A DNA stretch of 64,000 nt from Fidelibacterota bacterium (GTDB taxonomy: Bacteria; Fidelibacterota; Marinisomatia; Marinisomatales; Marinisomataceae): NCBI GenBank assembly GCA_028140795.1, contig JAOIOW010000001.1:336466-400465 (forward strand). The letters run 5' to 3'. Shown here in pieces: positions 9,077-63,997 of the stretch. Numbering within the stretch: position 1 is the stretch's first letter; every line of letters starts with the position of its first letter. The notes beneath the pieces were generated by a model. It searched no databases. It was not told the origin of the DNA and saw only the letters and a program-made list of their open reading frames with translations. The translations under genes were made by a program, and so were the position numbers.

Positions 9077-10941
9077 ATACCATTGCTACTTCAGAATTAT
9101 TTTGGGTTATCTTAGCTGGCTATGTGTTCTTTGTATTAGGTGCGGGATTATTTTTTGCAAGAAATAATCAATCAACCGAAGATTTCTTTTTTGGCGGAAG
9201 AAGATTTTCATGGTGGTTAATTGGAATGTCAATGTTGGCAACTGGTGTGGGCTCACATAGTTTTGCCAAATATGCATCTAAAGGTTTTGAATATGGGTTT
9301 TCATCCACCATGACCTATATGAATGATTGGTTTTTTATGCCTTTATTGTTATTTGGTTGGATTCCAATTATTTATTACATGCAGGTCAATTCTATTCCTG
9401 AATATTTTGAACGTAGATTTAATTCCACTGTAAGAAATTTATCTACGATAACAATGCTTTTATACCTCATAGGATATATAGGTATTGGATTATTGGCCTT
9501 AGGATCATTATTACAGCCAATTTTAGGATGGGAAATTAATACTATTATTATAGTAGTAGCTGTTATATCGGGCACTTATGTATCATTAGGTGGCCAAACT
9601 GCAATTATATTTACTGACTTTTTACAAGGTGTCATTCTGCTATTTGCAGGGTTACTAATTTTTGGTTTGGGTATTGCTTATTTGGGAGGATTTGATTTCT
9701 TCTGGAGTAATTTGTCAGCTACAAATAAGTTGCCATTGGCAGATTTTAACTCCCCACCTGACTTTAACTTTGTTGGAATTTTCTGGCAAGACGGAGTAGT
9801 TGGTTCAGTTGGATTTGCATTTATGAATCAGGCAGTAATTATGAGATTTTTAGCATCTCGATCTGTTATTCATGCTCGAAGAGCAACTATGATGAACGTA
9901 TTGGTTTTCTTACCAATAGGTACTGTTGCAGTTTCAAATTCTGGTTGGTTGGCTAGAGCTATAGAAAATATGACCCCTGGTGTTATCACTGATTTATTAC
10001 CAAATGGAAGTGCAAATGGTGTATTTACTGTTGTTGCTTCCCTGGTAGCAAATTCAGAAGCAATTTTTGCTTTCCTAGTGGCAGCAGTAGTTGCTGCTTT
10101 AATGTCTAGCTTGGATTCGCAAATTAATGCATCAGCAGCGGTGGCGGTTAATGATGTATATGCGCCATTAAGTAAGAATCCTTCTGAAAAAACACGCCTA
10201 AGAGTTTCCATGTTTACTTCCTTGCTCGTTACTTTTGTTGGGATACAAGCAGCATTCTTATTTGCACAATATGGAACCATTTATGAGGCTCATGGTGCAT
10301 TTCATAGTGTAGTGACTCCACCAATGGTTACGGTTATTTTCCTTGGTATTTTCTGGCAGCGCTTTTCATCAAGAGCAGCTGTATTAACGTTTGTCCTAGG
10401 TGCAGCATTTATTTTTCTTGGGATCGAGTATCCTCAAATTTTTGTTCAACCATTCTCACATGGGATTGAATATGTTGAAGCAAAACCATGGTCATATATT
10501 AGAGCATTATATAATGTAGTGGCATGTACATCCATTGGAATCATAGTAACCTTACTTAATTCAAAACCAAATCAATCGCACTATGAACAAATTAAAGGAT
10601 TAACTCTTTGGACAATTAAAGATGGTCCACAATTTTTTAAAGGTTCAGAGGTTAATGAAAATGCAGGTAGTAAAATCACCTTTAATGGTGATATGATTAA
10701 AGTTGTGGATGATACAGATAATAAAATATATTTACCAGCAGACTTAATGAAAGATCTTGGTGCAAAAGAAGGAGATTTTGCATATATATCTGACACAAGA
10801 TGGTACTTAGGTGGAATCAAATCTACTCATGCGTATATTGGAAAAATGTCATCAAGTAATAAAATTGAAATCTCTAAAAATGTCCAGAATCATGGTCAAT
10901 TTGATCCTTCAAAAAAATTATTTATCGAGTTAGAATTGTAA
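9073..10941 (+). CDS. Sodium:solute symporter family protein with soluble C-terminal domain
   Basis: FFFGGRRFSWWLIGMSMLATGVGS, multiple TM segments, C-terminal IYLPADLMKDLGAKEGDFAYISD. Confidence 0.85.
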   Translation: MNTIATSELFWVILAGYVFFVLGAGLFFARNNQSTEDFFFGGRRFSWWLIGMSMLATGVGSHSFAKYASKGFEYGFSSTMTYMNDWFFMPLLLFGWIPIIYYMQVNSIPEYFERRFNSTVRNLSTITMLLYLIGYIGIGLLALGSLLQPILGWEINTIIIVVAVISGTYVSLGGQTAIIFTDFLQGVILLFAGLLIFGLGIAYLGGFDFFWSNLSATNKLPLADFNSPPDFNFVGIFWQDGVVGSVGFAFMNQAVIMRFLASRSVIHARRATMMNVLVFLPIGTVAVSNSGWLARAIENMTPGVITDLLPNGSANGVFTVVASLVANSEAIFAFLVAAVVAALMSSLDSQINASAAVAVNDVYAPLSKNPSEKTRLRVSMFTSLLVTFVGIQAAFLFAQYGTIYEAHGAFHSVVTPPMVTVIFLGIFWQRFSSRAAVLTFVLGAAFIFLGIEYPQIFVQPFSHGIEYVEAKPWSYIRALYNVVACTSIGIIVTLLNSKPNQSHYEQIKGLTLWTIKDGPQFFKGSEVNENAGSKITFNGDMIKVVDDTDNKIYLPADLMKDLGAKEGDFAYISDTRWYLGGIKSTHAYIGKMSSSNKIEISKNVQNHGQFDPSKKLFIELEL

Positions 10942-10967
10942 TTTTCTACTGTTTTCAAAAAAAAATA

Positions 10968-10996
10968 TTGACAAATAATTTTCATATATTTTAAAC
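10968..10996 (+). promoter_or_regulatory. Candidate sigma70-type promoter (TTGACA, 17-nt spacer, TTAAAC)
   Basis: Perfect TTGACA at 10968-10973; weak -10 at 10991-10996; places a start just before the first leader repeat. Confidence 0.35.
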
Positions 10997-11013
10997 TTCC
11001 ATAGTTAAAATCG

Positions 11014-11214
11014 CTTTTTAAGATGTTGAAGCAGATCTTAATGAAAAAATTGATCTGGCCATGCACTTAAAAAGAGTTTTATTACTTTTTAAGAGTTGAA
11101 GCAGATGTGGATGAGAAAACATATCTGGCCATGCGATTAAAAAAGTCTTAGGGGGCGTTTTTAAAAGTTGAAGCTAATTTTATGAAAAGGAGATTAGGCC
11201 ATGCGATTAAAAAC
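11014..11214 (+). repeat. Three tandem ~70-nt copies of a structured leader element (candidate riboswitch-like RNA)
   Basis: GTTGAAGC at 11025, 11095, 11167 and GGCCATGC at 11057, 11127, 11197; outer (TTTTTAA/TTAAAAA) and inner stems in each copy with compensatory changes. Confidence 0.75.
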
Positions 11215-13936
11215 AATTATACTATCCGTATGTCTTGTCACATCACATTTATTTTCACAAACAGGTAATTTATTAGGAACAGTTTCAGATTCAAATGGTT
11301 CCTTTCCATTACCAGGTGCCAATGTTTATTTGGAGGGAACTAACTTTGGAGGAATAACTGATTCCGGAGGCAAGGTATATCTTTCAAATCTACCAGCAGG
11401 AAATTATAAGCTAGTAGTGTCGTACATTGGATATGAAAATCAAGAAAAAGATATTTCTATTGATGCTGAAAGTTTGAATACTTTTTTAGTAGAATTATCA
11501 GTTGGAACATTAGTTGGAAACGATATTGATGTAATTGGTAATTCTTTATCGGGCCAGGCTAGAGCGTTAAATAATCAAAAAAATAAATCAAATGTTAGTA
11601 ATGTAATTTCATCCGATCAGGTTGGAAAGTTTCCAGACTCAAATATTGGAGATGCGTTAAAACGTGTCCCTGGAATTGCTGTATACAATGATATGGGTGA
11701 AGCTAGATTTGGGCATGTTCGCGGAACTCCATCTAGTTTTAATTCAGCAACCATTAATGGGGAAAGAATGCCTTCCGCAGAGGCTACAACAAGAAGCAAC
11801 CAGTTGGACATAATTCCTGCTGATATGATTCAAACTGTTGAAGTTATTAAAGCACTTACTCCAGATATGGATGCAGATGCAATAGGAGGGTCTATTAATC
11901 TTATTACACGAAAAGCTGCTGGAACACGAACATCAGTTACTGTTGGAAGAGGTGAAAATACCTTAGATCAAGCTGGTAAAATAGTACAGTTATCTGGAAT
12001 GCATTCCAATAGATCAGAAGATAGCAATTTTGGATATATGTTTAATTTTTCTTTTTATGATAACTGGACAGGTACTGATAACATTGAAGCAGAATGGGAT
12101 GATGAAGGAAATATTGTTGAACATGATATTAGAAAATATTTAGTTCATCGTGAAAGAAAGAGTCTTGGATTGAGATTCGATTATAATTTGGGTAATACAG
12201 AATTATATACAGATCTAAATTATAATGATCGTGATGATTACGAAAATAGATATCGTCAAAGAATAAAGGATTTAGATGAAGGCGAAGGAAGCCAAGAGGT
12301 TAGAAGACAAACCAAGGCAGGATTGCCAGGTAATGAATATGGAAGACTGGAAGACCAAAAGCTTTTTTCCTATAAATTTGGTGGAACAAGTCTTTTAGAT
12401 AAGCTAAAACTAGATTATTCTTTTAAAATTTCAGAGGCTTCAGAGTTAAGACCAAACGAAAGATATCTAGCTTTAAGATTAAAAAAACAAACTGCCGTTT
12501 GGAATCAAAGTACTGAAAAGCCAAACTTTACTTTCACAAATGCAATCGCTGCAGACTTAAATAATTCATGGGATTTTAGAAACTTAATTGAAGAACGCAG
12601 AGATACTTATGAAAAAGCACAGAGCTTTAAGTTGGACGCTGACTACAATTTTAATGACAACCTAAAATTAGAAGCTGGATTGAAAATTAGTTCAAGAAAA
12701 AAGGAAAGACGTAATGAGTTCTACGAATTTGAACCAGTAGATGAAGATGCTTTTTTAGCAGATGCATTTTCAAACATCGTTAGTCAAGATAAAAGTGAAT
12801 GGCTAAATGATGGGGATGGTACTTCTTATAATTCAGGGTCTTACGTAAGTAGAGAATTTCTTGGAAATTTAGATTTATCAAATACAGAACTTTTTGAGAG
12901 AGTTATTGTTGAAGAAGAGTTGGCTGGCAACTTCAAAGCCTCTGAAGACATCACTTCATTCTATGGAATGGCTTCATATGATTATTCAGACCAATTGCTA
13001 GTTGTAGGTGGTATAAGATTAGAAAGAACATCCTTATATGATTTAGAAGCAAGAAGCTATGACGAAGATAATGATCAAAATAATATCATTACAGCCGCTG
13101 ATAACGACTATACTGATTTATTACCCTCATTGCACTTCATATATGATTTAGATGTGGCATCAAAGATTAGGGTTGCTTTAACAAAGTCTTTAGCAAGACC
13201 AAATTACTTTGATACCGTTCCATATCAACAAGTAAAAGTGGAAGATGAAGAGATAAAGGTTGGTAATCCTGAATTAGAGCCTACCATTTCAGCAAATTTC
13301 GATATTTCTTTCGAAAGATATTTTGATGATGTTGGGCTTTTCTCAGCAGGAATGTTTACGAAAGATATAGATAACTTTGTTGTTTACACATCAGGCTATG
13401 TAACTCAAGCTGACAATCTACCAGACTACAATGGCTTTCAGTTAGACAAAGCATTGAATGGTGGAAATGCATCTATATTTGGAGTTGAAATTGCATTTCA
13501 AAGGCAAATATTACCGGGACTAGGTTTATATGCCAATGTTACTGCTATTGACTCAAAAATAGATAATTTAGATCCAAAGCTTCAAGAAGACAGACCGGAT
13601 GTAAAAGATAATCCTATGCCAGGTACGTCTGAGCTTAGTTACAATCTTTCTATGTCATATGAAAGAGGGCCAATGACCGTACGTTTATCTCTTAATCATC
13701 AAGGAGAGTTTCTTGAAGAATTTGGTGATTCCAAATCTGAAGATAGATGGTATGATAAAGCAACCTATGTTGATTTGAATGCAAATTATAATATCAGAGA
13801 AAATATTTCTCTTTATGCTGACTTTAATAATTTAACTAATCAACCATTGAGATATTACCAAGGAAGTAGTAGATATTTAATGCAAGAAGAATATTATAAT
13901 ACAAAATTTACAATCGGTATAAAGGCTGATTTGTAA
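11201..13936 (+). CDS. TonB-dependent receptor with CarboxypepD_reg-like domain
   Basis: Signal peptide; GTVSDSNGSFPLPGANVYLEGT; plug FGHVRGTPSSFNSATINGERMPS; C-terminal barrel. Confidence 0.9.
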   Translation: MRLKTIILSVCLVTSHLFSQTGNLLGTVSDSNGSFPLPGANVYLEGTNFGGITDSGGKVYLSNLPAGNYKLVVSYIGYENQEKDISIDAESLNTFLVELSVGTLVGNDIDVIGNSLSGQARALNNQKNKSNVSNVISSDQVGKFPDSNIGDALKRVPGIAVYNDMGEARFGHVRGTPSSFNSATINGERMPSAEATTRSNQLDIIPADMIQTVEVIKALTPDMDADAIGGSINLITRKAAGTRTSVTVGRGENTLDQAGKIVQLSGMHSNRSEDSNFGYMFNFSFYDNWTGTDNIEAEWDDEGNIVEHDIRKYLVHRERKSLGLRFDYNLGNTELYTDLNYNDRDDYENRYRQRIKDLDEGEGSQEVRRQTKAGLPGNEYGRLEDQKLFSYKFGGTSLLDKLKLDYSFKISEASELRPNERYLALRLKKQTAVWNQSTEKPNFTFTNAIAADLNNSWDFRNLIEERRDTYEKAQSFKLDADYNFNDNLKLEAGLKISSRKKERRNEFYEFEPVDEDAFLADAFSNIVSQDKSEWLNDGDGTSYNSGSYVSREFLGNLDLSNTELFERVIVEEELAGNFKASEDITSFYGMASYDYSDQLLVVGGIRLERTSLYDLEARSYDEDNDQNNIITAADNDYTDLLPSLHFIYDLDVASKIRVALTKSLARPNYFDTVPYQQVKVEDEEIKVGNPELEPTISANFDISFERYFDDVGLFSAGMFTKDIDNFVVYTSGYVTQADNLPDYNGFQLDKALNGGNASIFGVEIAFQRQILPGLGLYANVTAIDSKIDNLDPKLQEDRPDVKDNPMPGTSELSYNLSMSYERGPMTVRLSLNHQGEFLEEFGDSKSEDRWYDKATYVDLNANYNIRENISLYADFNNLTNQPLRYYQGSSRYLMQEEYYNTKFTIGIKADL

Positions 13937-14018: not shown

Positions 14019-14091
14019 TCCGGAGTAGCTCAGTTGGTAGAGCGAGTGACTGTTAATCACCAGGTCGGGGGTTCGAGTCCCTCCTCCGGAG
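14019..14091 (+). tRNA. tRNA-Asn (GTT)
   Basis: TCCGGAG/CTCCGGA acceptor, loop CTGTTAA, GGTTCGAGTCC T-arm. Confidence 0.95.
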
Positions 14092-14127: not shown

Positions 14128-15102
14128 ATGGATTTTTTAACACTATGGTCTTTGTTGGGCTTTCTATTTGCGGTATATGCTGTAACTGCAAATGATAGTA
14201 TTCAAACTCTAGGTACGTATATTTCATCAAATAGAGATATCAAGTGGTATTGGATGTTTGGATACATGGGTTCAATTTTTCTTTTCACTATGATTCAAGG
14301 CTTTTCAATAAACGATCCAGCATTTGGAAGATTAGATAAATTTGAACCAATTACCATTCAATGGTATCATGCATTAGCTCCGCTTGTTTTAGTGGCATTA
14401 ACAAGATTAAAAATTCCAGTTTCCACGACATTCCTAGTACTTTCCGTTTTTGCTACCTCTATAGTAATGGAGCAAATGCTTATTAAGAGTTTTGTTGGTT
14501 ACGCTGTTTCATTCGTCTTTGCATGTGGCTCATGGTATCTCATCAGCAAATATTTCTTATATGAAGGCGAAAAAGGTAACAATAAATACAATAATTATTG
14601 GAGAGTTGCTCAGTGGTTAACTACTGGATGGTTGTGGTCAACATGGCTAAAGCATGATCTAGCCAATATTATGATTTTCTTACCAAGATATAGTATGGTG
14701 CAGTCATTTCAATTCCAGCTGTTTGTTGTATCAATAATGTTATTAGGTTTAGCATTCATGTTTTATGAACGAGGTGGGCGAATTCAAGAAATTGTTTTAT
14801 CTAAAACTAATACTCGATATGTTAGATCTGCTACCCTAATCGATTTAGTCTATTGTTTTGTTCTATATTATTTTAAAGAGGTAAATAATATTCCCATGAG
14901 TACAACTTTTGTATTTATGGGAATGTTAGCCGGAAGAGAGCTAGGTATTTGGTTGTCAATTGGTTATGGAAAGTTGACATATACTGACAGACATAAAAAA
15001 GCTATTTTTCCTATGCTTTATATGGATTTCTTAAGATTAATGCTAGGCTTAATGATTAGCGTGTCTCTTGCTTATGGAATTCAATGGTATTCCAGTCTAT
15101 AA
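14128..15102 (+). CDS. PiT-like inorganic phosphate transporter family membrane protein
   Basis: VTANDSIQTLGT and two (P)VSTT/PMSTT motifs (KIPVSTTFLVLS, NIPMSTTFVFMG). Confidence 0.65.
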   Translation: MDFLTLWSLLGFLFAVYAVTANDSIQTLGTYISSNRDIKWYWMFGYMGSIFLFTMIQGFSINDPAFGRLDKFEPITIQWYHALAPLVLVALTRLKIPVSTTFLVLSVFATSIVMEQMLIKSFVGYAVSFVFACGSWYLISKYFLYEGEKGNNKYNNYWRVAQWLTTGWLWSTWLKHDLANIMIFLPRYSMVQSFQFQLFVVSIMLLGLAFMFYERGGRIQEIVLSKTNTRYVRSATLIDLVYCFVLYYFKEVNNIPMSTTFVFMGMLAGRELGIWLSIGYGKLTYTDRHKKAIFPMLYMDFLRLMLGLMISVSLAYGIQWYSSL

Positions 15103-16753: not shown

Positions 16754-17701
16754 ATGAAGATCTTAAAATTTTACCTTATCAGTTCTTTGTTTTTCATCAT
16801 TGGATGTAATTCCAAGCCTAGTGTTATTATCTTGGATAGCCCGATGTTCGTAACAGAATCTGTTGCTGACGCAGGAATGGACAGTATTGGATTCTTAATG
16901 AGAAAACATGTTATTGTAGTGACAGTAAAAGATAAAAATGAACTGCATGTATATGGTGCTATGAATGGAAAGTTTAAAAAATCTATTAAGCGAGAAAATG
17001 CCTATCCAAATGGAATTACCACTATTAATGATCAGTTTGTTTTAGTTACAGAAAGAGATAATAAGCAGGTTGCTGTATTTAATTCATCGATGGAATTTTT
17101 AGGTACTTTTGGAAATGAAGAGTTACGCAGCCCTTATGGAATTACATTTTATAAACAAGAGAACAACTCTTATAAAGTTTTAGTTACTGATAGTTATGAA
17201 TATAATAACCCAAGAGAAGATCGAATTCTTAGTTGGGATTTCACCATTGAAAATGGAGAATTTTCAGTCGGACCAGCTACAGTGCTAGGAAATCCTACGC
17301 TTTATCAAGTAGAAAGTATTCAAGCTGATAAATATTATCAAACTTTGTTAGTGGCAGAAGAAATGAAAGAGCACCACAAGGTTATGGCGTTAGATTTAAT
17401 GACAGGTGAAGTTATAAAAGAAGATTTAGGTAATTTTGATAGAGGAAATGACCCTGAAGGCATTGCGTTAGTAATTAATAAAGATAACAATGGTTATTGG
17501 ATTTGTACTGAGCAAAGTAAAACTGATAACCGTTTTCACTTATACGATCGCAAAACATTAGAGTATAAGACTACTATGTACTTAGATAATGTTTCCTATA
17601 CTGATGGTATTGCCACAGCATACATGCATGGAAAATGGTTTCTATATGCAGTAGATAATGATGCTCGAGTTGTTGCATTTGAACTGCCAGAAATCAATTA
17701 A
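16754..17701 (+). CDS. Phytase-like beta-propeller lipoprotein
   Basis: Lipobox IIGC; DPEGIAL, WICTEQSKTDNRFHLYDRK resembles beta-propeller phytase repeats. Confidence 0.55.
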   Translation: MKILKFYLISSLFFIIGCNSKPSVIILDSPMFVTESVADAGMDSIGFLMRKHVIVVTVKDKNELHVYGAMNGKFKKSIKRENAYPNGITTINDQFVLVTERDNKQVAVFNSSMEFLGTFGNEELRSPYGITFYKQENNSYKVLVTDSYEYNNPREDRILSWDFTIENGEFSVGPATVLGNPTLYQVESIQADKYYQTLLVAEEMKEHHKVMALDLMTGEVIKEDLGNFDRGNDPEGIALVINKDNNGYWICTEQSKTDNRFHLYDRKTLEYKTTMYLDNVSYTDGIATAYMHGKWFLYAVDNDARVVAFELPEIN

Positions 17702-63863: not shown

Positions 63864-63997
63864 GCAAATAAGGTCTCCTGGCTTATACCTAAAATGATTT
63901 AATTCCTTCTCCAACAATGTTGAATGGTTATTATTAAATCTCAGTAATTACAGTAGCGGGGACTGCTAAAGTTTTTCACTTTATTCCCTACATTTGC
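63864..63997 (-). promoter_or_regulatory. Cobalamin riboswitch (compact)
   Basis: Minus strand: GCAAAT...GGGAATAAAGTGAAAAACTTTAGCAGTCCCCGCTACTGTAA...AGCCAGGAGACC...ATTTGC; B12 box and closing P1 stem. Confidence 0.9.

Follow-up and report, generated by a model that had tools for sequence, protein, structure and literature searches.

A triple-hairpin RNA leader overlapping the start of a TonB receptor gene in Candidatus Marinimicrobia, with a possible link to phosphorus acquisition

A TonB-dependent receptor gene that begins inside a repeated RNA structure raises the question of what the structure controls and to what it responds. The DNA analysed here, a stretch of 64,000 nucleotides that we call the window, comes from a Candidatus Marinimicrobia genome of ~0.92 Mb, and a preliminary description had reported three tandem structured copies running into the receptor's start codon. 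Its repeat coordinates, P1 arms, P2 stems and placement of the ATG in the third GGCCATGC all proved correct. Three structured modules of ~65 nt each occupy 11012-11217, 5' of the receptor gene and overlapping its start, and each follows the same plan, in which an outer stem P1 is followed by an internal loop (GUUGAAGC / GGCCAUGC), an inner stem P2 and a variable apical loop. GTTGAAGC and GGCCATGC recur in all three (Table 1), and the receptor ATG lies within the third copy of the latter.

Table 1. Positions of the leader, its parts and the adjoining genes in the window
Feature	Position	Strand	Remark
Sigma-70-like promoter	10968..10997	+	TTGACA, 18-nt spacer, TAAACT
Probable transcription start and invariant 5' segment AGTTAAAAT	11003..11011	+	start site inferred from conservation
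Helix PL, 5' strand	11006..11023	+	transcript 5' end
Module 1	11012..11077	+	86 bits with model R1
Module 1 P1	11014-11022/11066-11074	+	
Module 1 P2	11032-11037/11052-11057	+	
Module 1 loops	GTTGAAGC 11025-11032, GGCCATGC 11057-11064	+	
Inter-module hairpin of alternative fold	11066..11093	+	module 1 3' arm with module 2 5' arm
Module 2	11082..11147	+	82 bits with R1
Module 2 P1	11086-11092/11137-11143	+	
Module 2 P2	from 11102, with 11127	+	loops at 11095 (GTTGAAGC) and 11127 (GGCCATGC)
Helix PL, 3' strand TCTTAGGGGGCGTTTTTA	11146..11163	+	linker 2-3 and module 3 5' arm
Module 3	11154..11217	+	overlaps receptor start; 74 bits with R1
Module 3 P1	11157-11164/11207-11214	+	
Module 3 P2	11174-11181/11190-11197	+	loops at 11167 (GTTGAAGC) and 11197 (GGCCATGC)
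Receptor Shine-Dalgarno AAGGAG	11187..11192	+	8 nt 5' of ATG
TonB-dependent receptor	11201..13936	+	TIGR01782; CarboxypepD_reg, plug and barrel domains; gene behind leader
tRNA-Asn	14019..14091	+	leader 5' of it here, 3' of it in G002, G022 and G023
PiT-like (distant PHO4) membrane protein	14128..15102	+	gene behind leader in G002, G022 and G023

Orthologues of the promoter have TTGACT or TTGACA ~17 nt 5' of TATTAT, at an unchanged distance from the leader. When nine leaders are compared, conservation sets in at AGTTAAAATCGC, ~6-7 nt past the -10 box, and this onset looks like the transcription start. At the other end of the leader, the receptor's AAGGAG spans the apical loop and the P2 3' strand of module 3, with GGAG facing a U-run (11178-11181), and the AUG sits in the module's conserved loop. 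The folding model predicts that both are buried, at an opening cost of ~7-11 kcal/mol. This enclosure of AAGGAG in the P2 hairpin is absent from the preliminary description, as is a pairing between the leader's 5' end and the linker of modules 2 and 3. Modules 1 and 2 retain the ATG (except module 2 of G002) without any Shine-Dalgarno sequence, which suggests that in these modules the ATG belongs to the recognition sequence.

Covarying stems had been claimed for both helices, and the claim holds well for P2. Across 16 distinct copies, 23 cells of P2 are changed on both sides, against 6.3 in shuffles, and 0-4 such cells are left when the partner is shifted by 1-3 columns. Among orthologous copies, five compensatory double changes in P2 map onto the gene tree, with A-U and G-C exchanged three times in module 1 and U-A and C-G twice in module 2; in no case did one side change alone. 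The P1 arms are as described and their covariation is weak (6 of 9 pairs never vary); being almost invariant, P1 is backed by conservation more than by covariation. An apical ATGARAA, said to be kept, is not conserved in relatives, since three other species have ACGTAAAGG, ATTAAAAGG or ATAAAAAAGG in module 3. Comparison of G000 with G002 shows the leader identical at 144 of 165 positions (87%) versus 175 of 324 third codon positions of the PiT-like gene (54%; p~4e-14), by which measure the leader is under purifying selection. Only one genus yielded the element, which limits its diversity, and few independent events underlie the covariation.

No family in Rfam matched the leader by cmscan, in agreement with the view that it belongs to no known riboswitch class; a search of 10940-11260 at the gathering score and at E up to 10 gave only unrelated sub-threshold matches, and RF00174 (cobalamin) did not match there. 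An RF00174 riboswitch is present near the window end (63871-63989, minus strand, 72.9 bits). With a covariance model, R1, built from the 16 distinct module copies, the element was found in 10 of 24 congeneric genomes, at one locus per genome, as three tandem modules in nine of them and as a single module in G015. Nothing came up in the remaining 106 genomes of the order, and across the phylum (245 genomes) there was no credible match outside the genus; a 29.5-bit match in G131, which by eye is where the coding sequence of a secE-like gene next to tRNA-Trp begins, was set aside as chance. A pattern scan of IMG/VR together with phage and plasmid searches returned only a 24-nt chance match. Rfam-negative, covarying, under strong selection and predicted to bury the Shine-Dalgarno sequence and AUG, the leader thus supports the original proposal of a conserved cis-regulatory RNA, structured and in tandem copies, that takes in the start codon.

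The three-hairpin fold has a long-range competitor. The two strands of helix PL are complementary over 18 nt with one mismatch (duplex -17.6 kcal/mol); for the 14-nt core of the linker the pairing energy is -13.9 kcal/mol, and shuffled linkers average -5.1 (p = 2e-4, somewhat optimistic because the helix was picked after the fold was seen), and 13-14 of the 14 linker positions are identical in distant species. The inter-module hairpin of the same fold has 9 pairs and shows one C-G to A-U double change, in G002 and G023. Helix PL is used by the consensus fold of nine leaders. Leaders in front of a receptor mostly prefer the three-module fold, G008 being an exception in the ensemble, with a small energy gap between the two folds in most cases; leaders that have no receptor behind them prefer the long-range fold. 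The idea that the PL fold is the ON state is unsupported, since constrained folding leaves the Shine-Dalgarno sequence paired in both folds, and the energy model therefore gives no basis for an on/off assignment.

Gene order around the leader takes two forms. Six genomes have the leader in front of the receptor, with tRNA-Asn and the PiT-like gene further downstream, and in G002, G022 and G023 promoter and leader stand between tRNA-Asn and the PiT-like gene, with no receptor. In these three, module 3 is followed by sequence similar to the start of the receptor's signal peptide, which makes loss of the receptor probable. Their modules 1 and 2 are intact and module 3, the former holder of the start codon, has decayed: in G002, 1 of 32 loop positions has changed in modules 1-2 versus 6 of 16 in module 3 (p = 0.004), which indicates that modules 1 and 2 are maintained without a receptor. 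The PiT start lies ~80 nt further on, and because the start-codon module is lost, the same mechanism cannot act unchanged on this gene. The single module of G015 is joined to the tail end of a broken receptor gene, and its PiT-like gene is broken too. Receptor homologues of 67-68% identity in G007, G016, G018 and G061 are leaderless and have an ordinary AAGGAG or GAGGAG site. On the PiT gene tree, whose inner support is weak, presence and absence of the leader require three changes, which a single gain and two losses would account for. Near the PiT-like gene in receptorless leader species is a porin-like gene (L115:2379-3323 and L117:3168-4124; assigned by eye, no Pfam match), directly 3' of PiT in G022 and three genes downstream in G002, which may replace the lost receptor.

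A role in phosphorus uptake is suggested indirectly for the receptor by its neighbours. PHO4 was matched by 7 of 8 homologues of the PiT-like protein (best E 1.2e-5), but the window protein, at 15.2 bits, is under the Pfam gathering score of 33.7, and so are the proteins of all genus genomes; a PDB profile search with the protein gave no match, and its structure prediction was uninformative (mean pLDDT 37). A beta-propeller-like lipoprotein encoded at 16754-17701 of the window is phytase-like by eye and has only a weak NHL repeat in Pfam. PstC, PhoU and PhoB had no match in any of the nine genomes whose triple leader is intact, four of these genomes being 92-98% complete. PhoU and PhoB-like genes are found in the leaderless G005, G007, G018 and G020, a PhoB-like gene in the leaderless G016, and a weaker PhoB-like match in G010, also leaderless. 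Mutual exclusion of an intact leader and PhoB/PhoU has a Fisher p of 0.05, uncorrected for ancestry and amounting to about two independent cases on the tree, and is suggestive only, as several leaderless species likewise have neither PhoB nor PhoU. Indirect support for phosphate as the signal comes from the position of the leader before the PiT-like gene in three species and from its absence or decay alongside PhoB, PhoU or Pst.

Two of the genomes deserve description in their own right. G015 has a Pst-PhoU-PhoB cluster (C2:10604-14918) with the sole PstC among the 24 genus genomes, and its leader, receptor and PiT-like gene are decayed. In G018 (C2:327507-335610, locus L119), PiT has PhoU directly 5' of it and is accompanied by a TonB-receptor-like frame and by a gene for a PKD-domain protein; the receptor is followed by a phytase-like gene (PF02333, E 4e-4), and a PhoB-like gene lies ~6.5 kb away. 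This phosphorus island stands in place of the tRNA-Asn/leader arrangement, and the downstream gene order is kept.

We lean towards a cis-acting leader that represses translation of phosphorus-acquisition genes. The promoter just upstream would yield a 5' leader RNA with three hairpin copies sharing the conserved internal loop, and the fold of module 3 would hide the receptor's Shine-Dalgarno sequence and start codon, so that the folded state blocks translation. Modules 1 and 2, as further copies of the recognition element, might sharpen the response. The internal loop could be recognised by a small molecule reflecting phosphorus status or by an RNA-binding protein, and the bound factor would shift the balance between the three-module fold and the fold that joins the 5' end to the linker ahead of module 3; the genes under control would be those of phosphorus acquisition. 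Start site, translational repression, switching and phosphorus signal are all steps that we infer. As is expected of a riboswitch, the locus has a conserved, structured 5' leader RNA with covarying helices. We regard as doubtful the narrower proposal of a new class of tandem riboswitch that would sense the cell's phosphorus status, through phosphate or through a phosphorylated signal, control genes of phosphorus acquisition and so serve as an RNA replacement for the Pho regulon in genomes without PhoB, PhoU and Pst.

The term "aptamer-like" for the modules is plausible, and an array of protein-binding sites would look identical. Such an array is the main competing reading: an RNA-binding repressor protein bound to the internal loop of module 3 would block ribosomes, and modules 1 and 2 would add sites. 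It accounts for all features as well as an aptamer does, and the small size, the one conserved-loop hairpin per module, the tandem copies and the very narrow distribution all suit it. However, no obvious regulator gene adjoins the leader in either context and the alternative helix suggests an RNA switch, and we rate the protein array as possible but on the unlikely side. The ATGs of modules 1 and 2 open frames of 12 and 6 codons, both present in the window, with the first frame's stop codon in the loop of module 2; translation of each frame could control folding of the next module, the repeats then being duplicated start regions, and a receptor-start-like sequence does trail each module. We think this improbable, because neither ATG is preceded by a Shine-Dalgarno sequence, changes in the frames are mostly non-synonymous, and the second frame of G002 has lost its ATG while the RNA fold is retained. 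For the same reasons a leader-peptide attenuator or uORF, which would have a translated and conserved short frame, was rejected.

The UUUU-GGAG pairing in P2 is what a fourU-type RNA thermometer would use, and the folding model places it in module 3 alone, where it would melt with temperature. This would leave the conserved internal loops and modules 1 and 2 unexplained, the latter being equally conserved without a Shine-Dalgarno sequence, and a thermometer is accordingly very improbable. Even less credit can be given to an action of the repeats as DNA, in the form of an operator array, or to a passive tandem duplication: the P1 arms are AT-rich and near-palindromic and the copies are in tandem, but P2 has compensatory changes, conservation is far above neutral, and the modules are downstream of the promoter.

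The leader represents an RNA family missing from Rfam in an uncultured marine group, with an unusual build that joins three near-identical modules, a ribosome site and start codon within the last, and a competing long-range helix. According to a review, none of the known riboswitch classes reports phosphorus status or primarily regulates phosphorus-homeostasis genes (PMC10043782; see also PMC9971707). Searches of titles and abstracts of open-access papers found neither a natural phosphate riboswitch nor a Marinimicrobia riboswitch of this kind. Should the leader respond to phosphorus, it would close a gap named explicitly by the field itself and would show PhoB-free regulation of phosphorus uptake in streamlined ocean bacteria.

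Triplet riboswitches are known, namely the c-di-GMP-I triplet of Bacillus thuringiensis (PMC4759541; survey in PMC9481103). That triplet likewise places three structured, nearly identical modules in the 5' leader of one gene, whereas the present leader differs from tandem and triplet riboswitches in being Rfam-negative, in its simple one-hairpin module and in the start codon inside its last module. The tandem-aptamer system of a streamlined marine bacterium shares the compact tandem elements, with translational control as one reported level, but it combines two different aptamers for a known ligand, in contrast to three copies of one element of unrelated sequence. Cobalamin riboswitches (RF00174) control TonB receptors and so offer a parallel, an RNA leader before an outer-membrane TonB receptor gene; their size and fold are unlike those of the leader, which RF00174 does not match. 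FourU thermometers resemble module 3 in the U-run paired with the Shine-Dalgarno sequence; the leader differs from them by its conserved internal loops and by two more modules that have no Shine-Dalgarno sequence.
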